This document shows, in pieces, positions 3,124 through 60,490 of a stretch of DNA of 64,000 bases. The position numbers and the translations under genes are program-made. This DNA is from Paramacrobiotus metropolitanus (lineage: Eukaryota > Tardigrada > Eutardigrada > Parachela > Macrobiotidae). Position 1 is the stretch's first letter; the number at the start of each line of letters is the position of its first letter. The stretch lies in contig NW_026570228.1 of assembly GCF_019649055.1 (NCBI RefSeq), forward strand, positions 1 to 64,000, given 5' to 3'. The notes under the pieces were generated by a model. The model made no database searches and was not told where the DNA came from. It worked only from the letters and a program-made list of their open reading frames with translations.

Positions 3124-4314
3124 CCGGTGAAGGGGGGCAACACAGGATATTCTTGCCGGAGGACATCACGTCGACGATTCTCTATTTTGGGCTAAACAAT
3201 CTCCCGTTGCTGAAATAATCTCAGTGATCGAATTAGACGATGGTAAAAGCGATTGCTGGCGCACGTATCCTTGCACAGCTGCTGTTGTTTCGAAATGCCT
3301 GGATTTCTGTCGGTAATACTCGGGATAGATGAAAGCGAGTATGTGACAGTTAAAAAAACTGTGTCGGTTGCACTGCTAAAATGAAATGGCCGTTTTATGT
3401 TTGATTTTGAGGGATGCCATGTTTTTGTATGTGATTCAGAAGATTCCACGCATTCCATAGCTTTATTGCGAAGCTTATAAGCATCAAGAATTAATCAAGC
3501 CACGTTACAGCAGCAACGCGTTTTGAATGCTTTCGATAGTAAGAATGGGAAGACCCGTCATTACCTGCACGCGGGTGTACCTGAGCAGAAATTCTGCACA
3601 TACAGTGTGGGCAGCGATGGGTATGTCGGTAAATCCTTGAATATATGCCGCCCTCGGCATCAATTCGGTTCCATCCAGTAATAACTTTAACACGGTAAAA
3701 AAAACTCAATAAAACTGCAAGATAAGATCCTGGAAATCCGAAATCTTTTGCGTTGCTGGTTGCTTTATGCTTATTACATTTACATTGCTTTACATATTAA
3801 ATTCCCTATTACATTACATTACATTTGCGTTACTTATTACGTTAAATTTACATTATGACAGTATTACGTTACTTATTACATTTACATTTTAGAATGCTTA
3901 TTTAAAGCGATTCAGCTCTCAAATCTTTCTGAAAATCTTCGGTGAACCTTGCCAAGCAATAATATGCATTTTTCAGTTAAAGTATGACTTGCCATTTCTT
4001 TCAAGGTAAGCTCGAAAGTACTTTGTAATCGACTAATATTTGAACTGTGACTTTCCACCAAAATGCAAGTCGGGATTATTTAAGGTTATATAAACGAAAC
4101 CACAAGTAAAATCACAAAGAACTACAGTAGTTACCAGTGGCCAAAAGAAAATAACAATCTAAATCTGTGAGTATCTGGCATCAACAAAAGAACCATTTAC
4201 CTGTTAGCGCCTCATGCTTTTAATCGTATTTAGATCGTGTTACAATCATATTATTAATTTTATTTAATTTTAATCAATTTATAATATATTGTACTCATAT
4301 CGACGATCGTGAAT
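3124..4314. other. Intergenic; 3' flank shared with homeobox copy 3
   Basis: About 3,150-3,440 is recognisably similar to about 14,580-14,860 (for example the shared CGTTTTATG-centred block), so the duplication that made copies 1 and 3 extends past the last exon. The remainder is AT-rich with no supported gene. Confidence 0.45.
3765..3895. repeat. TTACATT-type low-complexity repeat
   Basis: Degenerate tandem runs of TTACAT, TTACATT and ATTACGTT over about 130 bases. Simple-sequence DNA. Confidence 0.7.
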
Positions 4315-4640
4315 ATGAGCAAAATTTGCCGGTCACGATTCCTTATGAACTGCAGACTATCCGGCTAGCAATGCGAAGCACTTGCAAATGTCTTTTTACT
4401 TCAGCCGGTGAACGGTGAACGTTGTACGTTTTTGAACGCTGAACGCATTGAGTTCGGTGAACGCTGTATGTTTTTCAAATGTCTGTTACTGTTACACCAT
4501 GATTCACGACTAACAATAAACAAGAAGCGTCTGTCGAACAGCGATTCTCTTTATGCTCTCCAGTCCACAGTATTTATTGTTACTTGCTAATACCACCGGC
4601 TAAATGTGATAGATCTTTTGAATCACATCCTGCTTGTAAG
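4315..4640 (+). repeat. Duplicated upstream module, orphan copy 2
   Basis: It shares with 1,340-1,675 and 13,130-13,375 the ordered motifs GATTCCTTATGAA, GTTCGGTGAACGC, TTTTTCAAATGT and CACATCCTGCTTGTAA. No homeobox remnant follows here; a retroelement gag-like relic starts at 4,800. 'GGTGAACG' is also repeated locally three times. It is an orphan duplicate of the homeobox 5' flank. Confidence 0.55.
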
Positions 4641-4799
4641 TTGTAACTACCAACAACATTTGAAGTTAACGTTTTAATCGTTAACTTGGTTTAACGACGT
4701 AAGAGAAACGCCGGCACTGCTGATCTCTCATTCTGCGTCGCGCAAAAATAGCCCGTTGGACTTCACGCGGATCTACTGCCTTCCCTCCATTGCCTTGGA

Positions 4800-5840
4800 A
4801 TGTGGAACCTTGACGCCCGAATCGCGGCCGCACGACAGCATCTACAATCCCTGGTTGCTAGCAAGGATCCCAAGGTAATTCACGTTCCTTCCGCATCCAG
4901 TGCTGCACCTGTACAGCCGCCGGCACAGTCCACGGAAATGTCCATGATCCTCCAGCTGATGATGAACCAACGAAATCAGATTAACCAGTTAACTCAGAAA
5001 ATCGACGACTCCCAGGTGGTCAAACCTAGAAGCGCAGCAGAAACCAGCACCGGTAAGAAACCCCGCCACTGCCGACTGGGTTCCCTTATGTCAGTGAAAA
5101 GTGTTTGGAATAGTTATATGACCTCACGGTCAACATCGATTTGGATAAGCTGCTGCGCACGAACAGCATCATGTCTCCAATTCAGGGCGAAGCGAAATTC
5201 GAGATCCGGGATGGTAATTTTGTTTTGTCTGACTCGAAGCCCAAGAAGGTCACGATCACATCGTTTACTCTGTGGAATGAAGCCTTTATTGTTTTCCGCC
5301 GCGTACGCAGCTTCTATCACCCGGCACTGCAGCATCCGCTCGATTTCTACCAAACCCTTATCACAAAATTGGCGGGAATCTACGCGCCGGCTGTTTGGTT
5401 GGAGTACGACAAGACTTTTCGTGCCAGCCGTATTCGCGACTCCAACCATGATGAATGGAACCGATTGGACAGGAACTTGTTAGACCGTTGTGTGGCACGC
5501 CGTCCCGCTTCGCGCGCATCTGCCACTATGCCGGGAATGTACAATGGCTGACCATACTGACTAAGATTGTCCGAAAAAATTCCAGTTTGCCTCACAAAGT
5601 CGGGCCGATGTCTTGTCGGATCGAGCATATAAGCATATACCAGCTCATCTGTGCCACAACTGGAATAACGGGCGGTGTCCAAACGAATCCAGCTGCTGCT
5701 TTACGCACGCGTGCGGAAGATGCCGTTCATGTGACCATACGATTCGGGAGCACGAGTCAGCGCAGCATAGCGATGCAGGGAGTGGACACGTTATTTCTCG
5801 CAAATAGAGCAACATGGTGGCTGTCTTTGGTAAATATAAT
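4800..5840 (+). pseudogene. Retroelement gag-like gene with C3H1 zinc finger, multiply frameshifted
   Basis: Three coding-like pieces lie in different frames. 4,800-5,080 holds a helical Gln-rich segment (LMMNQRNQINQLTQKIDD). 5,141-5,545 holds a globular part with TSFTLWNEAFIVF and DEWNRLDRNLLDR. 5,613-5,807 holds a perfect C-x7-C-x5-C-x3-H finger (CHNWNNGRC...CCFTH) followed by C-x2-C-x2-DH. Proteins with this 'LW..AF..F' core plus a C-terminal CCCH knuckle are known from memory as gag-like partners of tyrosine-recombinase retroelements of the DIRS type; that assignment is tentative. An in-frame TAG near 5,111 and at least three frame changes make it a relic. A possible small intron follows (GT near 5,830, AG at about 5,874), leading to a Pro/Gly-rich tail. 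No recombinase or reverse transcriptase is seen downstream. Confidence 0.55.
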
Positions 5841-6517
5841 GTAGCGCGATATTTTCTTTTTCATAGAATTGCAGGTTTATTACAACCTATCCGCATAACA
5901 CGCGGGCTCCGCAATCGTACGGCTCAGCATTTGGCGGCGCACAGCCTTAACCAAATGGCGAGATCAGCGAGCGTCACCACACTGGACATCAGGAGGATAC
6001 CGCAAAAAGATAAGTTCACGCAAAAACTACAGTATACTTGATAATGTACAGTTTGCACATAAAAATATAATGTATGTATGTATGCATATGCACATAAATT
6101 ATGTAAATGTATGTGTGTCTATATATATTAAGCACGGGAACGCGGTAACACCTGTCTGGATTGCGTGATTCAATATACTCCGTTTAATTATTAATGTCTG
6201 AATTTGTACCAAAAACTAGTATCGCTGACGTTTTATCTGGGTTGCAGAAACTGCGATACAGCGGGACAAACCCTACTACCACACCAGCTAATTTCCTTAC
6301 CAGAAATCAACTGACCGTCATCACTCATTACCCACAAATAGTTTGGGGCCTTCCCGATGGCTCGCCATCTCCTGCTTCGCACCACAAGCTGGCCTCGCCA
6401 TCATCACACTCCTATCCGCTTGCAACGCCTGCGCGTACCACATTGTTTGGGGCACCTCCTCACTCGCGCAGCTCTCTCGCTATGGTACGCGCAGAACCGC
6501 ACCGGAAGGCAGTCTCA
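5841..6517. other. Intergenic; short TATG/TGTA microsatellite near 6,070
   Basis: A TGTATG-rich stretch lies at about 6,070-6,130. From about 6,350 the base composition becomes richer in C and G towards the hairpin cluster. The overlapping open frames at 6,194-6,876 occur in all three plus-strand frames and show no domain, so none is called a gene. Confidence 0.35.
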
Positions 6518-6673
6518 TCCCCTGGCCACGAATCAGGGGAAGCACCTGGCCACGCATCAGGTGGTGGTCCCAACTCCCTGCGTCCTTGGGTGCGAGTCAC
6601 CTGGCCACGTATCAGGTGTCGCCAACCTCCCTGACCACGAATCAGGGAGGACACCTGGCCACGCATCAGGTGT
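6518..6673. repeat. Cluster of five short hairpins with conserved loop and covarying stems
   Basis: Five perfect inverted repeats share a 9-base loop of consensus RCCACGHAT. The stems are TCCCCTG/CAGGGGA (6518-6540), CACCTG/CAGGTG (6543-6563), CACCTG/CAGGTG (6598-6618), CCTCCCTG/CAGGGAGG (6626-6650) and ACACCTG/CAGGTGT (6651-6673). Where the left arm differs between copies, the right arm carries the complementary change. The first two are 2 bases apart and the last two are adjacent. The set lies in a GC-rich island of otherwise AT-rich intergenic DNA. Function is unknown. Confidence 0.85.
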
Positions 6674-7146
6674 CTGCGATGGCATACACGCGCACACGCA
6701 TACGCATTACGCATACACTCCTTCCCGGTGGCCGTGCATGTTCTGACGATACCACGAGAATCCGCGGCCGAGCTGAGGCTGGCCATTTGCCCAAAACCAT
6801 TTGTCGGCGTTTCTCGAACATAGCCGTTAAGTACGGTAGATCCAGTTTAGACCGATTCAGTTTTCGAAACAGCTAGCCGAATAAAGTAATCGCAAAGTAT
6901 GGCTGTGTTTTTCGCTTTGCATTTGCAGGTTTCAGTTTCCTATACAGTAACAATACTACACTACAGACTGTAGCCTGGTCAATAATTTTTTTGCATTCGT
7001 GTTTTACGACAGTAATCAATCCTATTCCGTCCGGCGTCCAGTATTTGTGGTGACTGACTCAGTTTTGCACTTTAAAATGCTAAACAGCAGAGGATTTGTT
7101 TCCTTCAATTTGGATGAGAAGAAAACTGTTCTGTCAATTCGTGAAT
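6674..7146. other. Intergenic; 5' flank of homeobox copy 2
   Basis: A short (CACACG)-like stretch at about 6,687-6,715 is followed by sequence in which about 7,020-7,146 resembles the flanks just upstream of copy 1 (1,800-1,950) and copy 3 (13,735-13,870), including a shared CTAAACAG..G motif. No gene. Confidence 0.4.
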
Positions 7147-7795
7147 ATGTTTCGTGAGAGCCACGATTCCAGTCAAAGCTCTGGACCTTCATCAACTGCT
7201 GCGAGAGGATCCAGCGCAGTATCTTCGGAGCTTTGAGCTCCGAGAGGACAATTTCAATAATGTCGTTCATATGCCGAACGTTGTGGAATCTGCCACACCT
7301 GAACATGTGCGTCCCATCGTTACTCCTACCGTCAATCCTGCAGGCGGCTGTAAAAAAATCCACCGTTGCCCAAATTTTCGCAAAGACCAAGTTAAGCAAT
7401 TAGAGAGCTTTTATAAGAACTGTCCCTATCCGAACTTTGCTCAGCGCACTGAATTGGCCGAAATTATTGGAGAGAGCACAGGTGAGCAGCCAGTGTGGAG
7501 GTGGTTCAGGAGAAGACGTTACAAGCAGCGCAGAACTGGGGGCACTGTTCCGGCTGCCAGCCCTCCACATCGACTTGCAGTCCTGCAGCTACGAAATCCC
7601 TCACATCCGGTCCAGTTGAGTCTGCTCCCGCAACCCCGTTTTTCCCGCAGACTTTGCGGATTTCACCGGCATCAGGCGTGCAAAGCGGATTTCAGTTGAA
7701 ATACAGCGGTCAGGCCAACGACATATCCTTCGGATGGTCATGCCTGCTGGCGGTGATCATCCGTACTTGATTATGCCAGGTGGAAATTCGTGTAA
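7147..7795 (+). pseudogene. Homeobox-like gene copy 2, frameshifted, with helix-3 Asn replaced
   Basis: An ATG at 7147 (MFRESHDSSQS) lines up with the starts of copies 1 and 3 but hits a TGA. The homeodomain frame covers about 7,154-7,560 with LESFYKNCPYP and a recognition helix reading WRWFRRRR, so the nearly invariant Asn of WF.NRR is Arg. A frame change near 7,560-7,610 moves the tail (SGVQSGFQLKYSGQANDI) to another frame. A two-base insertion at about 7,722 breaks it again relative to copy 3. A GTAAGT donor is kept at about 7,793, but no exon 2 was found downstream. It is a decayed paralogue of copies 1 and 3. Confidence 0.65.
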
Positions 7796-7989
7796 GTCTT
7801 GAACAAATGTAATAACAGTTACTCAGCCGGTGTGGGCTCGATTTAATATTTAATGGATCTCTTACTCGTGTATAAAAAATCCAGTTTCGCGCTTCAAAAT
7901 TGTTGCAGGCTCAGAAGGACGTCCACCGTAACTGTGACCTTAAATGTTTCTTTGCGAGTAGGTTTTACAGAATAATTTTCAATATGGCT

Positions 7990-8071
7990 GGCAAAAATTT
8001 TAGATAAGAAATTTTTGCTATGTTTCCATCTAAAATTTCCTGGCAAAATTTTCCCATCTAAAATTTTTGCC
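7990..8071. repeat. Imperfect hairpin built of GGCAAAAATTTTAGAT units
   Basis: Sixteen bases at 7990-8005 recur as their exact reverse complement at 8056-8071, with two further degenerate copies between them. It is probably a miniature foldback repeat. Confidence 0.75.
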
Positions 8072-8890
8072 ATGTTCCGAGAACAGCGGAATCTTTATCT
8101 GTCTGGGAGACCTCACCGGTTGCATAATTTTACTCTTTACACTTCATAATCGTAACATTCATTCTACAAATTTTTGCTCCTATTTAAAAATGTATTTACT
8201 TCTACGCTTCGGTCATGCAGTGCCCGCCAGAAGCGAGTGCACTTACCTAGTTAGGTTAGTATTGCTTTAAAGTGCACTTTAAAGACCGTGGTAAAACGCC
8301 ATTGTGCATGGCGTAGTTGATCGTGTTGTAAATCTATTCTGTTGCAGAAAAGCCGGATTCAGATGCTTCTGGATTGATCAACAATATTACTGGTCACTTT
8401 CACTCCTCATTATGGACGTTTAGTCGTCCCCACATTTTTGCCACTGCTTTACGACTTACGAGAGGGGCTGATGACTGCTGCGGTGCAGGTGACCAATTGT
8501 TTTCAATGTAATTTATAAGTGACCGATTGTTAATCAATCTCGAAGTAGGGTTAAAAGTTGTATGTAGCCAATCGCCCAAAATTTTAGAAAAATAATGTAC
8601 ATCTGTGAGGAATTAGCTCAAAAATACACAGATTAAATCAAGTCAGTCACAGCGTCCACAATGTTCGCTTTCGGATTAATCAAACCCAGTGAAATACTTC
8701 ATGATAACATTTTTGCAAAGTGCATTCGCGTTTGCTGAATACACTTTATACAGACACATGTTGGTAAAAATCGTACTGGATGTGCTTTTTAGCTTACATT
8801 AACATACAATGTCATATTAACAAACACAGAAAATCAATGTTGTTCACATTATTGCTCAAGTGGCTGCATAACGAGGCAGTCAGATACGAC
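8072..8890. other. Intergenic
   Basis: No supported gene. AT-rich, lying between the homeobox relic and the 3' end of the receptor at 8,891-9,955. Confidence 0.35.
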
Positions 8891-9955
8891 TCAGCGATTT
8901 CCCGTCGAAAAAATATTCCTTATTATGGTCCGAACATCTTTAATACCGATGACAATGATCGCGGCATCAAAAAAAGCTTGCGTTTCTTGCATCCAAGTGC
9001 CATACTAAAAATACTGGACAGGTGACCTATAACCACCAAACAATTCCGCTAGATACACGCAGGATGCCGGTGCCCAGCATAGGAGCACACTGATGGTCAT
9101 GAGCGTTAAAACCGTGAAGGCATTCCGGATTTCTCTTTGCCGAGCAGGTGACATTTCGGATCGTGCAGTCGTATCAATAAAGCGACGAGCACTAACGATG
9201 GCTGTCGCTGCATGTGCGAGTTCGATGGTATTTCCAGCATTTGCATTACGGTTATTCGAATTGTCTTTGGTGCTGTCCGCAAGTGATGTTCTAGCTCGCA
9301 CACGCCTTTTTCGCACGGTCTTCCACAGCAGAAACGGATACGTGATAATGACAAACAATACAGGAATATCGCTCATTATTATTTCCATAATTTTTAAATA
9401 CGTCTCTGATATTTCTCGGCTGAACCGGCATCCAAATATCTCGCCTGGGCCACGGTAAAACCAGGCATTCATGATAAAAGCCGGTAAGTGTACCACATGC
9501 ACACAGATCCCCATAATGACGCACGATACAATGGCGACGCGTCTCGAATGATACTGATAATAGGAATGAGGGAACGTCACGGCCCAGAGACGATTGCCAG
9601 CAATTAAAAATCGCCCCCAAAGCGCAGTGGCGGGTGGTATTAGGAAACCGTAAAAGTACAGATCGCATAACACCGAACCCGGCCACCAGTTCTGCTTCAT
9701 CCATTTAATAACTTGGTAGAATGGTGTCAGTACAAGGAGCGTAATGTTGCAGATCAGGAGATTGATCAGGTAGACGTTGAAGTCCTTGTGCAGTTCGTGC
9801 TTAACTAGCAGAACCCATAAGACTATGGCGTTGAGGCAGAAGGTCGTTACGTTGGTAAATACTTTGAAACCGGCGAGAAAGTTCCAATGCACGTTGGTAA
9901 TATTGCCGTCAAAGCTGGGAACAGTGTAATTCGTCCTTGTGTTCAAGTAATCCAT
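8891..9955 (-). pseudogene. Rhodopsin-like GPCR (lineage 1) with in-frame amber stop before TM7
   Basis: The minus-strand frame starts MDYLNTRTNY at 9955. It has an N-glycosylation-rich N-terminus, the lineage motif QNWWPG near residue 90, the conserved extracellular Cys at about 97, NRLWA at 121-125 ending TM3, a basic third loop and TM6 with VLLCWAP. A TAG at 9005-9007 stops the frame after 316 codons. Beyond it the same frame continues for 38 codons to TGA at 8891-8893 with WMQETQAFFDAAII and GIKDVR, a clear TM7 matching the intact paralogue at 16.95-18.01 kb (VLETQAFCDAAII). One base change therefore removes TM7. It could be a young pseudogene, a polymorphic null allele or, less likely, a readthrough site. 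Plasma-membrane receptor; ligand unknown. Confidence 0.85.
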
Positions 9956-13870: not shown

Positions 13871-14564
13871 ATGTTTCGTGAAAATGATTATTCTAGTCAA
13901 AGCTATAGGCCATCGTTAATTACTGTGAGTGAATCCATCTCAATATCTCCAAGAAGCGACGCACCAAGCAGAAAAGAACTGCAGGTACTACGCCAGATGC
14001 ATCTACCAACCGTACACGTCGATCAGTGAACACCATGGATCATCCCATTCAGATTTAGTAGTGTCATCACCCGTAGGGCCTTTAATTCGGCAGCATTTGC
14101 GCACATCAGCGGCTGCAGGAGTCCATCACGGATTTCTGTTGCAGTATCCCGGTCAGTCTAACGACATACTTCGGTTAATCGTGCCTGCGGTCGGCGCTCA
14201 TCCATATGTGATCCTGCCTGTTGGAAATTTGTGTAATTACCTTATACAGCAAATATAATGACGACATTTATTTATAATTTAAAAATGAATGTGTTTGATT
14301 TAATAGTTAGTGGAGGGTTGATCACTTTTTTCATGCAACCTCACGACTTGAATATTCGTACTGAACTCAAGCAGTTTCATTTGCGTTTTAGGATGTCTTG
14401 CTACAGCTTTTCGTTTTTGTAGATGCGATATGGGATTCGATAAAGAAGATGTCGCCGCTATTAAATCCGAATTACGTTGTATTATGCAAACGGCTGAGGT
14501 ACCGCGGTCTGTCAGCTCTGTTCCGTTGCTCGTTTCTGCAGCTTCCGCGTACCCTGGCTGATAA
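13871..14564 (+). pseudogene. Homeobox-like gene copy 3, homeodomain deleted
   Basis: An ATG at 13871 starts MFRENDYSSQS, matching the start of copy 2. After about 30 codons the sequence jumps straight to the bases that in copy 1 encode the very end of the homeodomain (RRTKQKRTAGTTPDA), so nearly the whole homeodomain is deleted. The conserved tail (VHHGFLLQYPGQSNDILRLIV) is present at about 14,110-14,200. The exon-end donor is degraded to GTAATT near 14,232. Exon 2 is recognisable after an AG at about 14,421 (IWDSIK), but one missing base shifts its frame compared with copy 1. Non-functional relic. Confidence 0.68.
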
Positions 14565-16953: not shown

Positions 16954-18009
16954 TTATCTGGAAAGAAAAATATTCTTTATCGCGATTCGAACATCTTTGA
17001 CACCAATAATGATAATTGCTGCATCGCAAAACGCTTGAGTTTCTAGAACCCAAGCGGCGAACTTAAAAAATCCATCAGGTGCTGTCTCATATCCACCGAA
17101 CAGCTCCATTAACATTTCACATGTTCCCGGTCCCCAGCACAAGAGCACACTGATGGTCAGCAGCGTTAAGACGGTAAAGGCATTTCGGTTTTCTCGTCGG
17201 CGGGTCGGCGACATTTCAAATCGTGCAATGGTATCAACAACTCGAAGAGGTCTAACGATGGCTGCCGGTGCAAGTGCCAGTTCACCAGCGTTTTCACCAC
17301 GATTAGTCGAACGCGTTAGATTCGCGTTACCCGTCCCGGCCGCCGTCGCCAGGACACCCTTTCTCCTCACCGTTTTCCACAACAAAAACGGATACGTGAT
17401 AATAATAAATATTACGGGAAAATCAATCGTCGCTATCTCCGCGATTTCAAAATATTCGGCTTGTGCTAATCTATTGAACCAGCATCCGTGAATTTCGCCT
17501 GGTCGACGGTACCACAAGGCGTCGAAGATCATACCCGGCAGGCAGATTGCATGTACACAAATCCACATCGCGACGCACGTCATAATAGCGAAGCGTTTGG
17601 AGTGGTATTGAAGATAAGAATGGGGAGAGGTCACGGCCCAGACACGGTTGCAGGTAATCAGAAATTCTGCACAGATCCCAGCGGTGGGTATGTCGTTGAA
17701 GCCATAAAGGTACAGATAACACAGCACCCAACCGGGCCACCAGTTCGACTTCATCCAGGTGACAACGAGATAAAATGAGCTCAACAGAACGAGCATTATA
17801 TTGCATATCAGAAGATTTATCAGGTACACGTTAAAGCTTGTGTGAAATTCCCGTATGCCAAGTAAAACGCTTAAAACTATGGCATTCAAGAGAAAGGTCG
17901 TTACGCTGGTGAACACTTTGAAACCAGCGAGAAAGGTCCAGTGCACGTTGGTGAAATTGCCGTCAAACTCAGGAGCTGTATAGTTTGTTGTGCTATTAAT
18001 GTGTTCCAT
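16954..18009 (-). CDS. Rhodopsin-like GPCR, lineage 1, intact
   Basis: A single-exon receptor of 351 residues from the ATG at 18009. The frame is open 15 codons further upstream, but the chosen start aligns with its paralogues. TM1 is at about 29-50, TM2 60-82, TM3 106-128 ending in NRVWA (121-125, in place of DRY), TM4 141-161, TM5 191-211, TM6 279-299 (VLLCWGP) and TM7 318-338. Cys97 before TM3 and Cys176 in loop 2 are the likely conserved disulfide. The N-terminus carries NST, NYT and NFT sequons. The lineage signature SNWWPG is at 88-92. TM7 lacks NPxxY and reads DAAIIIIGVKDVR. It is the best intact reference for the broken copies at 8.9 and 35.3 kb and the intact one at 57.1 kb. Acts at the plasma membrane, presumably through G proteins; ligand unknown. 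Confidence 0.88.
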   Translation of the reverse strand: MEHINSTTNYTAPEFDGNFTNVHWTFLAGFKVFTSVTTFLLNAIVLSVLLGIREFHTSFNVYLINLLICNIMLVLLSSFYLVVTWMKSNWWPGWVLCYLYLYGFNDIPTAGICAEFLITCNRVWAVTSPHSYLQYHSKRFAIMTCVAMWICVHAICLPGMIFDALWYRRPGEIHGCWFNRLAQAEYFEIAEIATIDFPVIFIIITYPFLLWKTVRRKGVLATAAGTGNANLTRSTNRGENAGELALAPAAIVRPLRVVDTIARFEMSPTRRRENRNAFTVLTLLTISVLLCWGPGTCEMLMELFGGYETAPDGFFKFAAWVLETQAFCDAAIIIIGVKDVRIAIKNIFLSR

Positions 18010-18243
18010 TGCAGCACAGCTGATATGTACAGTCAGAGAATTTCTAAATAACAACCGTTAAACAGGTAACAAACTGCTGTTGCTCGATGAGAGGACTGCG
18101 TTTTCCCATTAGCGTATGCCTGCGAATGTAAGTAAACTAGGAAAACACAGGTTTAGATTCTGCCGACTAGCGGTACCTATGGAGCACCTTTCGAAAATCG
18201 ATTACGGTGGCGATAGATAACAGAGGCTAAAATATCCAGATTC

Positions 18244-35260: not shown

Positions 35261-36290
35261 ATGACTGACATTGACAACGCTACGAACGTTACGGCACTTG
35301 GATTCGACGGCAATTTTACCAACATACGGTGGAACTTTTTTGCTGGTTTCAAGGTCTTCACCAGTACAACCACCACTATTCTCAATGCGGGAATTTTGTC
35401 GTTGCTTCTTGCCAGACGGAATCTGCACACGCAGTTCAACATTTATCTAATGAATCTCCTTATTGCCAACCTGGGTTATCTGCTGTTATCGGCATTCTAC
35501 GACACGATTCTGTGGATGAAGCCAAATTGGTGGCCGGGAAATATGTTATGTGATGTGTGCCTCTATGCTATCAACAATCCGTCAACGTGCGTTATTTGGT
35601 CGGAATTCTTGATCACCAGCAACCGCATCTGGGCGGTGACCTTTCCTCACTCGTACTACCAACATCACTGCAGGCGCGTAGCCATTGTTACGTGCGTTGT
35701 CATGTGGATCGCGGTGCATGTTGTGTGCCTTCCTGCTTTAATAGTCGATTCCTGGTGGTATCGTCTACCCGGCGAAGTGTGCGGGTGTCAGTCTAACGAC
35801 GCGGCACAGCTACTGTACTGGCAAATTCTAGAACCGGTGACTATCGACTTGCCGGTTGTTTTCGTTATCATTTCTTATCCTTTTTTGCTTTGAAAAACGG
35901 TGAAACGGAGACGGAATAAAGTTAACCGGCTTGAATTTGGATGATCGGCAGCGAATGCGCTCGACCAATCCGGCTAGTAGCGGTAGCAATCGGGCAACGG
36001 ATGAGGCGGCCATCGTATCCGATGTACAACGCTCTCGCCAAAGGGAAAACCGGACTGCCTTCACCGTTTTGACGTTGCTGACCATCGGTGTCGCATTGTG
36101 CTGGATGCCTGGGACTTTGCCCCTGTTAGCCGCCAGGTTTGGCGATTACAAATTCCCCGAAGAATTAGTTCAGTTCGGCAACTGGGTTCAGGAAACACAG
36201 GCTTTCTTCGATGCATTGACCATCGTGGTCGATGTGAAAGACGTGGGGAAGGCGATTAGGAGTCTGTTTTGCGCATTTTCGGTGGTCTAA
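35261..36290 (+). pseudogene. Rhodopsin-like GPCR, lineage 1, nonsense plus frameshift
   Basis: The frame starts MTDIDNATNVTALGFDGNFT, colinear with the 17 kb receptor (NWWPG at 89-92, NRIWAVTFPHSY at 121-132, TM5 ...VVFVIISYPFLL). Immediately after TM5 the Trp codon of the conserved LLWKTV reads TGA (35,891-35,893), followed in frame by KTVKRRR. A one-base frame change at about 35,925-35,935 then places the rest (RENRTAFTVLTLLTIGVALCWMPG, VQETQAFFDALTIVVDVKDV) in another frame ending at 36290. Two independent lesions in the third cytoplasmic loop make this a pseudogene with all seven helices otherwise preserved, so inactivation looks recent. Confidence 0.85.
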
Positions 36291-57070: not shown

Positions 57071-58051
57071 ATGATAATGGTCAACCTCACGGACAATGTG
57101 ACCGTTCCCTCATACGACGGTAATTTAACGAACACCCGATGGAATTTCGTGGCTGGATTCAAGACGTTTACCGGCACTACAACGCTTTTAATGAATACCG
57201 CGGTGTTCTTGACGCTGTTGACCAATCGAAAATTGCGCACGGCGTTTAACATTTACCTGATGAACCTCCTGTTATCTAACATCGTGTACCTGGTTTGCTC
57301 CGAATACTACGATATCATTATCTGGATGAAGCGTAAATGGTGGCCCGGTAACGTCCTCTGCGAAATGCACCTGTACGCACTCAGCAGCCCGTCCACGTGC
57401 ATGACCTGGGCGCAAGTGCTTATCTCCTGCAATCGCATCTGGGCCATCACATTCCCCGCGCATTATCACCATCACCATACTCAGGTCGTGGCTATCGTGC
57501 AGTGCGTGGTAATGTGGTTGTTTGTGCACACGGTGACCTTACCCTTTGAGATTATGGACGCGCTATGGTATCGCGCACCCGGCACCACCAAAGGCTGTCA
57601 ATTTAATTTTGATGCACAAATATTATATGCGCAGATCTACGAGATAGTCATGGTAGATATGACGGTCATCTTCATCATTGTCGCGTATCCGTATTTATTA
57701 TGGAAAGTAGTAGCGCGGCGCCGTGCACGGACCGGCGAACATGCCGCACCGGGAAAGGCTGGACATACGCTGCCGGAGAGTAACGACGATACTGCCACAC
57801 GCGCCCGCTACAACGAGAGTCGAACGGCTTTTATTGTTCTGACGTCTCTGACGGTTAACGCCATCGTCTGCTGGACACCGTCGTCGCTAGTGTATCTGGC
57901 GGCGGATTTCGGCAACTATGATTTACCGGACCAATTCTATCAGTTCGGACACTGGATGCTGGAAACCGGGGCCCTAATGGATTCGGTCATCATCTTCATA
58001 AGTGTTAGAGATTTTCGAATGACGGTCTACAGTTGTCTGGGGTGTCGATGA
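57071..58051 (+). CDS. Rhodopsin-like GPCR, lineage 1, intact
   Basis: A single-exon 326-residue receptor starting MIMVNLTDNVTVPSYDGNLT; the first Met gives the same residue numbering as the paralogues. RKWWPG is at 88-92, NRIWA at 121-125, and loop 2 Cys is in TKGCQF. TM4 is VVMWLFVHTVTLPFEIM, TM5 VDMTVIFIIVAYPYLLWKVV, TM6 FIVLTSLTVNAIVCWTPSSL and TM7 WMLETGALMDSVIIFISVRDFR. It has a distinctive HYHHHHT run at the start of the second cytoplasmic loop, where paralogues have SYYQ/LQ(Y/H)H. The third loop is shorter than in the 17 kb receptor. It lies about 21 kb from the other lineage-1 plus-strand copy. Plasma-membrane receptor, ligand unknown. Confidence 0.88.
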   Translation: MIMVNLTDNVTVPSYDGNLTNTRWNFVAGFKTFTGTTTLLMNTAVFLTLLTNRKLRTAFNIYLMNLLLSNIVYLVCSEYYDIIIWMKRKWWPGNVLCEMHLYALSSPSTCMTWAQVLISCNRIWAITFPAHYHHHHTQVVAIVQCVVMWLFVHTVTLPFEIMDALWYRAPGTTKGCQFNFDAQILYAQIYEIVMVDMTVIFIIVAYPYLLWKVVARRRARTGEHAAPGKAGHTLPESNDDTATRARYNESRTAFIVLTSLTVNAIVCWTPSSLVYLAADFGNYDLPDQFYQFGHWMLETGALMDSVIIFISVRDFRMTVYSCLGCR

Positions 58052-59326: not shown

Positions 59327-59813
59327 CGTACCGACACTGTATCCTATGCGTATCCACTGTACCGACACTGTATCCTATGTGTAGCCAATGTACCGACACT
59401 GTATCCTATTCGTATACACTGTACCGACACTGTATCCTGTGCGTACCCAATGTACCGACACTGTATCCACTGTACCGACACTGTATCCTATTCGTATACA
59501 CTGTACCGACACTGTATCCTATTCGTATACACTGTACCGACACTGTATCCTATTCGTATACACTGTACCGACACTGTATCCTGTGCGTACCCAATGTACC
59601 GACACTGTATCCACTGTACCGACACTGTATCCTATTCGTATACACTGTACCGACACTGTATCCTGTGCGTACCCAATGTACCGACACTGTATCGACACTG
59701 TATCCTATGCGTATCCACTGTACCGACGCTGTATCCTGTGCGTACCCAATGTACCGACACTGTATCCACTGTACCGACACTGCATCCTATGCGTATCCAC
59801 TGTACCGACACTA
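59327..59813. repeat. Minisatellite array 1 (31/20-bp units)
   Basis: About 18 copies of TGTACCGACACTGTATCC followed either by a 13-base spacer (TATKCGTATMCAC or TGTGCGTACCCAA) or just AC, giving mixed 31- and 20-base units. No forward frame contains a stop inside the array, so all three frames give long VPTLYP/YRHCILCV-type frames. These are repeat artefacts, not genes. The array abuts the TIR element at 59,812. Confidence 0.92.
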
Positions 59814-60018
59814 TATATAAGGGGCGAAAGTAAACACGTTCCACCGTTCCCCTGTACTGCTGCCGTCACCCGCCTGGAGTGTGACGTTACGGCAATACAT
59901 GTGGTTAAATCTGTCGCGGTACATAAGCGCCATGTTCAGCCACAACGTCAAATTCCAGCCGGGTGACGGCAGCAGTACAGGGGAACGGTGGAACGAGTTT
60001 ACTTTTGCCCCCTATATA
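59812..60018. mobile_element. Terminal-inverted-repeat element (MITE), copy B
   Basis: The terminal inverted repeat is about 75 bp with few mismatches; it begins TATAAGGGGCGAAAGTAAAC on the left and mirrors on the right, with the inner part CCCCTGTACTGCTGCCGTCA. The core is nearly identical to 20,827-21,026. TATA at both boundaries suggests a TA-type target. No coding capacity. Confidence 0.8.
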
Positions 60019-60254
60019 ATAATTTAAAACGTGCCCGTTAAACAGCCATCATGTTTAAAAGTATATATTTCGAATGGATCAGCAATTCATTTTATCAGAT
60101 TGAAATAGTCGCATTCAGACAAAATCCTTTGCTTAATTCTGACTTGGAATAACCGTTATGTCGTGAATGCAATCTCGCCATTTTATGAATTTAATCAACG
60201 TTTTTGCAAATGTTTGTTTCTCATTAAATCAGCAGTGCAAAGGCGCGATACATA

Positions 60255-60490
60255 GCAGGTACAGTGGATACAGACTGGGTACAGTGTCGGTGTCGGTACA
60301 GCGGGTACAAAGCAGATACAGTGGATACAGACTGGGTACAGTCAACAGTGTCGGTACAGCGGGTACAAAGCAGATACAGTGGATACAGACTGGGTACAGT
60401 GTCGGTACAGCGGGTACAAGGCAGGTACAGTGGATACAGACTGGGTACAGTGTCGATACAGCGGGTACAGCAGATACAGTGGATACATAT
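60255..60490. repeat. Minisatellite array 2 (51-bp units), inverted relative to array 1
   Basis: About four copies of a 51-base unit built from GTGTCGGTACAGCGGGTACA, AAGCAGATACAGTGG and ATACAGACTGGGTACA. The shared word ACAGTGTCGGTACAG is the reverse complement of the array-1 word CTGTACCGACACTGT, so the two arrays face each other across the TIR element. Confidence 0.88.

Follow-up and report, generated by a model that had tools for sequence, protein, structure and literature searches.

How can the two arms of a hairpin change from copy to copy and remain complementary, and to what kind of sequence does such a hairpin belong? The question is raised by a cluster of hairpins in a 64-kb window, the whole stretch of DNA that was analysed, which forms the start of contig C8 in a genome of 169.8 Mb and 533 contigs. 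A preliminary description had reported five perfect stems around a nine-base loop, RCCACGHAT, with compensatory changes between the arms. The preferred answer, given a probability of about 0.5, is that the hairpins form a cis-acting element within the B half of the split direct repeats of Ngaro-type retrotransposons, one decayed and internally deleted copy of which is found in the window.

The hairpin array of the window

The five reported hairpins are all found (5/5), the fifth stem extending to base 6674. They are accompanied by a sixth, degenerate unit:

6518..6540, + strand: hairpin 1, TCCCCTG / loop GCCACGAAT / CAGGGGA, 7 bp
6543..6563, + strand: hairpin 2, CACCTG / loop GCCACGCAT / CAGGTG, 6 bp
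6570..6596, + strand: degenerate hairpin unit, left arm CTCCCTG retained, loop and 3′ arm gone
6598..6618, + strand: hairpin 3, CACCTG / loop GCCACGTAT / CAGGTG, 6 bp
6626..6650, + strand: hairpin 4, CCTCCCTG / loop ACCACGAAT / CAGGGAGG, 8 bp
6650..6674, + strand: hairpin 5, GACACCTG / loop GCCACGCAT / CAGGTGTC, 8 bp

These five hairpins are genuine and above chance. The loop RCCACGHAT occurs five times on the forward strand of the 64-kb window and never on the reverse strand, each time (5/5) inside a stem no shorter than 6 bp. In 50 single-base shuffles of the window, one strand holds a mean of 1.14 such loops, none of them with a stem of this length. The nine-base pattern is thus present as reported, but the loop is better read as seven nucleotides, CCACGNA, because the first and last bases of the longer loop can pair in RNA. 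The core consensus is CCTG-R-CCACGNA-Y-CAGG. Its four innermost pairs (CCTG/CAGG) are near-invariant, and paired changes are confined to pair -5 and outward.

The array is a decayed tandem repeat with a 54-bp unit of two hairpins. TRF reads 6520-6674 as 2.8 copies of this unit with 67% matches, and by eye each unit holds one CCC-type and one CAC-type hairpin. The degenerate unit is placed by the 54-bp period over 6520-6674 and by repeat family D1, a copy of which covers 6575-6618 at 64%. The core, with its 5-bp stem and 7-nt loop having ACG in the middle, resembles the anticodon arm of tRNA-Arg(ACG). A 15-mer of that arm is absent from this genome, and two looser anticodon-arm patterns gave no confirmed tRNA (ARAGORN was applied to L089, one of five loci excised); the likeness may be due to chance.

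The host element

From its repeat layout and domain content, the element that carries the hairpins is assigned to the Ngaro type of tyrosine-recombinase retrotransposons. Piecewise BLAST resolves the layout A1-[ORFs]-B1-A2-B2 in three copies (C34, C19 and C36), with A repeats of 373-416 bp that are 99.5-100% identical and B repeats of 283-329 bp that are 99.4-100% identical. In the C34 and C19 copies, Pfam detects a CCCH zinc finger in the first ORF, RVT_1 (5.8e-12 and 5.2e-11), and Phage_integrase at 3.7e-5 and 0.005, both below the curated cut-off. The recombinase ORF carries an HSFRIGGA...GRWKSSSFKRYI motif, in which the H-x-x-R ... Y motif of tyrosine recombinases is seen. RNase H reaches E 0.025 in one copy only, below cut-off, and no methyltransferase family is found in six ORFs from two copies (Pfam, E up to 0.1). 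In C34, the ORF of the RT overlaps that of the recombinase.

In five loci (L004, L013, L018, L019, and L021), the sequence directly upstream of the hairpins codes for the end of the tyrosine recombinase, and the first hairpin cluster is succeeded, 653-831 bp further on, by another. The array lies in B, just past the catalytic end of the recombinase, and is therefore carried twice where both B1 and B2 are present.

The junctions of the repeats have features of their own. In C34, C19 and C36, B ends in CGTTAAT, A1 starts directly after TAAT, and the flank before A1 is also TAAT; such a shared TAAT is what strand exchange by the recombinase at a short common core would be expected to give. A terminal palindrome, GAAGTTAGCG...CGCTAACTT, is observed at the start of A (L019, minus strand 964-1047; L018; L013; L021; window 4662-4700), and a longer inverted repeat (GGCGTTTCTCG / GAGAAACGCC) spans the B/A junction. 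A circular form would probably use the inverted repeats at this junction as its recombinase site, whose TAAT core is also present in the target in the three copies.

The window copy

As judged from its matches to intact copies, the window cluster is part of a decayed, internally deleted Ngaro-type element, at about 4662-6831, in which four parts are recognised:

4662..4720, + strand: A1 repeat remnant (element left end), terminal palindrome GAAGTTAACG...CGTTAACTT and GAGAAACGCCGGC
4932..5769, + strand: decayed gag-like ORF1 region, 842-bp alignment at 71% with the C34 gag region
6330..6379, + strand: possible recombinase coding scrap (weak), 52-bp alignment at 77% with the recombinase ORF of C34, E 9e-4
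6414..6831, + strand: B repeat, with recombinase ORF end, hairpin array and terminal GGCGTTTCTCG...GTTAA

BLAST aligns the A1 remnant to the A repeats of intact copies over 4660-4716 at 88%, its ends being read by eye, and aligns the B repeat to their B1 and B2 over 6414-6818, its end at 6831 likewise being set by eye. The hairpin array is located inside this B repeat. RT, RNase H and the remaining recombinase have no match in the window copy. Rfam gives no match at gathering score in the 64 kb and three weak ones (E up to 1) at 4000-9000, none over the hairpins, so that a known RNA family was rejected. The preliminary description, which knew no named element with this loop, missed that the cluster is part of a mobile element whose kind is known; the loop itself lacks an Rfam match.

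The surroundings of this copy show several other features. A TATG-rich simple sequence at 6070-6131 gives a sub-threshold mir-297 match (36.7 bits against a cut-off of 90), likely reflecting low complexity. Homeodomain-like ORFs are found at 1995-2447 and 7154-7699 (Pfam Homeodomain, 2.4e-10 and 9.8e-9), with further small ones, by sequence likeness, at 2498-2830 and 13929-14258; their occurrence in a row suggests that divergent homeobox genes, or pseudogenes of this kind, are clustered here. A rhodopsin-like receptor ORF at 9005-9955 (7tm_1, 2.6e-24) is joined by others, by likeness, at 16954-18054, 35261-35893 and 57071-58051, apparently a local expansion. Together, the homeodomain and receptor genes indicate an animal genome. 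At 59328-59816 and 60247-60487 there are tandem repeats of 31/62/144 bp built on GTACCGACACTGTATC and, close to them, a second array containing words that resemble the reverse complement.

Distribution and families in the genome

The pattern CCTGRCCACGHATCAGG has 171 exact matches in the genome, and its reversed control none. Three other core patterns, mutually non-overlapping, give 89 + 84 + 16 = 189 exact matches, again with none for the controls; these genome-wide counts refer to exact core patterns only. The 189 sites form 71 clusters scattered through the genome, with one to five exact sites each, and all of these places were fetched. With the hairpins masked, B-repeat flanks are recognised on both sides of 66 clusters and on one side of the other five, leaving none without, and every exact core site (189/189) lies in a B repeat. 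A host promoter or homeobox-linked element was rejected, all 71 clusters being flanked by a B repeat on at least one side.

Each cluster was assigned to its best-matching reference, seven in all, and the seven groups were then combined into five families: A (15 clusters), B (16), C (16, including the window), D (5), and E (19). Recognised hairpins number three to five per cluster in families A and B, one to five in C, three in D, and one in E. At L042 (C1:2298252-2301884), three family E hairpins occur within 2.3 kb (C1 2299627, 2301200 and 2301849), which suggests extra B or A-B units in tandem.

The hairpin is not universal among the recombinase loci. A search for the recombinase scored 150 matches of 324 candidates, of which the best 25 loci were cut. 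The nearest 19 of these carry the hairpin; a general hairpin scan found none in the six more distant ones (L049-L054, 42-44% identical). In a midpoint-rooted tree of 13 of the 19 hairpin-bearing loci and the six hairpin-free ones, which includes one long row (L054), the two groups split with support of 100/99 on both sides.

Stem pairing across copies

In the main pairing test a matching loop was the sole criterion. All 121 hits were kept, two of them chance sites that lie outside arrays, and they comprise 54 distinct 29-mers. Pairs -1 to -4 are nearly fixed. Position -5/+5 is paired in 47 of the 54 against 20.4 expected from column composition, and -6/+6 in 47 against 22.7, with three pair types at each; -7 (20 against 14.3) and -8 (17 against 13.8) are near expectation. 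For -5 to -8 combined, 131 of 216 are paired against a shuffled mean of 71.2 (sd 6.9, z 8.7), and with 30 representatives differing at more than two places, 75 of 120 against 42.9 (z 6.6); as related copies are not independent, these statistics and those of the second test below are not to be read as probabilities.

A second test used 131 hits, after removal by hand of five sites outside B arrays, and required a perfect loop or at least three paired bases, a filter that leans towards pairing. Among its 57 distinct 25-mers, 82.7% of cells are paired against 73.3% in shuffles and 62 cells are double-changed against 28.3, neither value being reached in 500 shuffles; slid partners give far lower pairing scores. 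In the same 25-mers, double-changed pairs (4) and further pair types (16) show no excess over shuffles. These two pairing tests and the reading-frame and RNA-fold analyses cover the loci other than L055-L087. Loci L004-L023 and L055-L087 were fetched for an exact core, so that changes in the core are under-counted, while the outer pairs are unselected.

The same picture emerges between families. Majorities for each family and position are paired at -5 in 19 of 19 cases and at -6 in 17 of 19, and pair -7 is Watson-Crick in just 6 of 19. These figures, like those for private changes below, are based on 193 of 269 copy-by-position rows (68 distinct), gapped rows being dropped, and the majorities for family B hairpin 1 and family C hairpins 1 and 2 come from two or three copies. 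Five outer arms (-6,-5) occur: AT, CA, CC, TC, and AC. The first three are paired in every case; TC and AC arms are paired in some families (B4, C4 and D2; E1) and mispaired at -6 in A2 and B2. Identity between the five family references, whose alignments may pair non-orthologous hairpins, is 93% in the inner stem, 82% in the loop (with one free position), 81% in the outer stem, 77-78% in the flanks, and 70% in the spacers. The compensatory stem changes first noted in the window are thus borne out by an excess of pairing at variable positions across the genome copies (131/216 against 71 shuffled). An E-box reading of CACCTG/CAGGTG was dropped because the arms ATCCTG, CCCCTG and CTCCCTG pair equally well but are no E-boxes.

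Origin of the paired changes

A coding origin can be judged from the recombinase frame, which was read in 15 loci, leaving out three hairpin-bearing loci without the motif and L033 (motif in another ORF). The first hairpin loop starts 217-233 nt after HSFR in 11 of these 15; the other four (L034, L039, L040, and L043) have an altered first hairpin, so that recognised hairpins begin further on. That the repeats are kept as coding sequence, giving the recombinase a C-terminal tail of repeated motifs (PGHESG / LATNQ / WPRIR), draws on the six family A loci read, where the frame stays open through the recognised hairpins and the stop follows the last of them. The hairpins, however, occupy phases 0, 1 and 2 of that frame, the stop precedes all of them in five family E loci, and in four family B loci it falls before all hairpins or within the first. 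Positions in all three phases or past the stop mean that coding does not explain the hairpins, nor would coding produce arm covariation; a coding repeat was accordingly rejected as very improbable. Coding conservation had been named in the preliminary description as a finding that would speak against a selected fold: family A overlaps the frame in different phases, and in families B and E the hairpins lie mostly or entirely beyond the stop.

The same description held that paired change implies either selection for the fold or a process that templates one arm from the other, and with the pairing excess seen genome-wide this dichotomy stands. The two options, left level at the time, no longer are. 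Quasipalindrome correction, in which the template is switched during replication or reverse transcription, would pair the arms without any selection on the fold. It is a described process (PMC8794818) that predicts compensated double changes; in genomic DNA it should leave compensated private changes and some inverted loops. Relative to the family majority, the copies carry 29 private changes among 402 pairs at -1 to -6, of which 27 are one-sided, two are two-sided to wobble and none is a compensated double. Insertions thus decay one arm at a time, whereas most of the states that became fixed between families or positions are compensated. Loop and core stem are moreover kept in sequence, and no inverted loop exists in the 71 arrays, although loop inversions were found to be rare in rRNA as well (PMC8794818). 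With private changes nearly all one-sided and none compensated, selection on the fold is favoured over self-templated genomic copying. Template switching appears improbable; in a variant limited to reverse transcription it stands, with a folded or dyad DNA site and a host RNA factor, among the main rivals of the RNA role proposed below. Selection on the fold is well supported, and the paired stem changes suggest that the folded shape, beyond the letters alone, is what selection keeps.

RNA or DNA, and a proposed role

At 224 of the 226 sites in the 71 arrays, the bases at the two ends of the nine-base loop can form a G.U, A-U or G-C pair. This closing pair fits a sense-strand RNA with the 7-nt loop CCACGNA, although weakly, because any single transition at G.U yields a standard pair. 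One-sided stem changes give no clear choice of strand (nine G.U against six A.C). Predicted RNA folds of whole arrays are mildly better than those of shuffles (z -1.8, -2.3, -2.4; z -0.24 for a single-hairpin family), and in some of them arms of different hairpins cross-pair, between CACCTG hairpins.

In the mechanism proposed here, the sense RNA would form a hairpin with a 7-nt loop on a conserved 5-bp stem plus one to three variable pairs, and a protein of the element, the CCCH-finger Gag or the RT, would bind it through loop and inner stem. The CCCH-finger Gag would be the first candidate. The bound hairpin might label genomic RNA as cargo for packaging, or might act at the start of reverse transcription, for instance by bringing the RT close to the 3′ end. 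Each repeat carries one to five hairpins, most with their own paired stem, and extra copies could raise avidity. Binding partner and step are guesses. A structure-selected RNA element in the terminal repeats of Ngaro-type elements, read by the CCCH-finger Gag as a packaging or replication signal, is proposed tentatively, as a reading that falls somewhat short of even odds.

Recombinase sites consist of short inverted arms around a spacer and are similar in form to these hairpins. The array, which lies within the terminal repeat of a recombinase element, could accordingly act as DNA when the circle integrates, the tyrosine recombinase or an accessory protein recognising its dyads as sites or binding extruded cruciforms. 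The insertion point, however, is the B/A junction, roughly 100-250 bp from the hairpins and different in sequence, with its own inverted repeats and, in three copies, a TAAT core shared with the target. Arms that change in sequence and stay paired, moreover, misfit a dimer that reads sequence but suit a folded single strand. Such a DNA role is rather unlikely. Use of the hairpins by a host RNA-binding factor, to form the 3′ end of the element RNA, export it or stabilise it, is similarly unlikely: it accords with the place of the array near the 3′ end of the element, where the family E hairpins, and most of those in B, come after the recombinase stop, but all 189 exact core sites are in B repeats, so that the exact core has no precedent in a host transcript.

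The RNA copying and circularisation of tyrosine-recombinase retrotransposons are poorly understood, and these elements are not known to have another cis-acting RNA signal; this one, if true, would be the first. A repeated hairpin present in B1 and B2, with five families of covarying examples, offers a concrete candidate for a cis signal, and the array a clean, testable reporter for it. The arrays also constitute a small natural experiment, in which hairpins are duplicated while most units retain their own pairing. The element kind is already known; the hairpin array in its B repeat is not described, judging by titles and opening abstract lines, in the Ngaro/DIRS split-repeat papers listed, the founding Ngaro papers being outside that search. 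The word "hairpin" is absent from the main texts of PMC9210276, PMC8547959, PMC11071193, PMC3783388 and PMC6681497.

Comparison with known systems

RNA packaging hairpins of the retroviral and phage type are repeated, with fixed loops and variable paired stems. The hairpins of the present elements are alike in all three respects; here, however, the array lies at the 3′ end and is duplicated in B1 and B2, and its packaging role is putative. Hairpins shaped by template switching, as presented in PMC8794818, share the compensated stem changes, whereas loop inversions are absent here and private changes affect one side at a time.

PAT elements have split direct repeats as well, and Pat1 forms also have a zinc finger in Gag (PMC4157794). 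They differ in encoding a methyltransferase, of which none was found in six ORFs from two copies here, and the overlap of RT and recombinase ORFs in the C34 copy is counted as a further difference. Loss of the methyltransferase in a PAT lineage is reported for C. briggsae by the same source. Ngaro, of the DIRS order, is closest in layout as described in PMC8547959 and PMC4157794: it is alike in Gag, RT/RNase H and tyrosine recombinase, in the arrangement A1-[ORFs]-B1A2B2, and in that no methyltransferase was found here. To this architecture, the elements of the present genome add a sequence-conserved array of hairpins in B.
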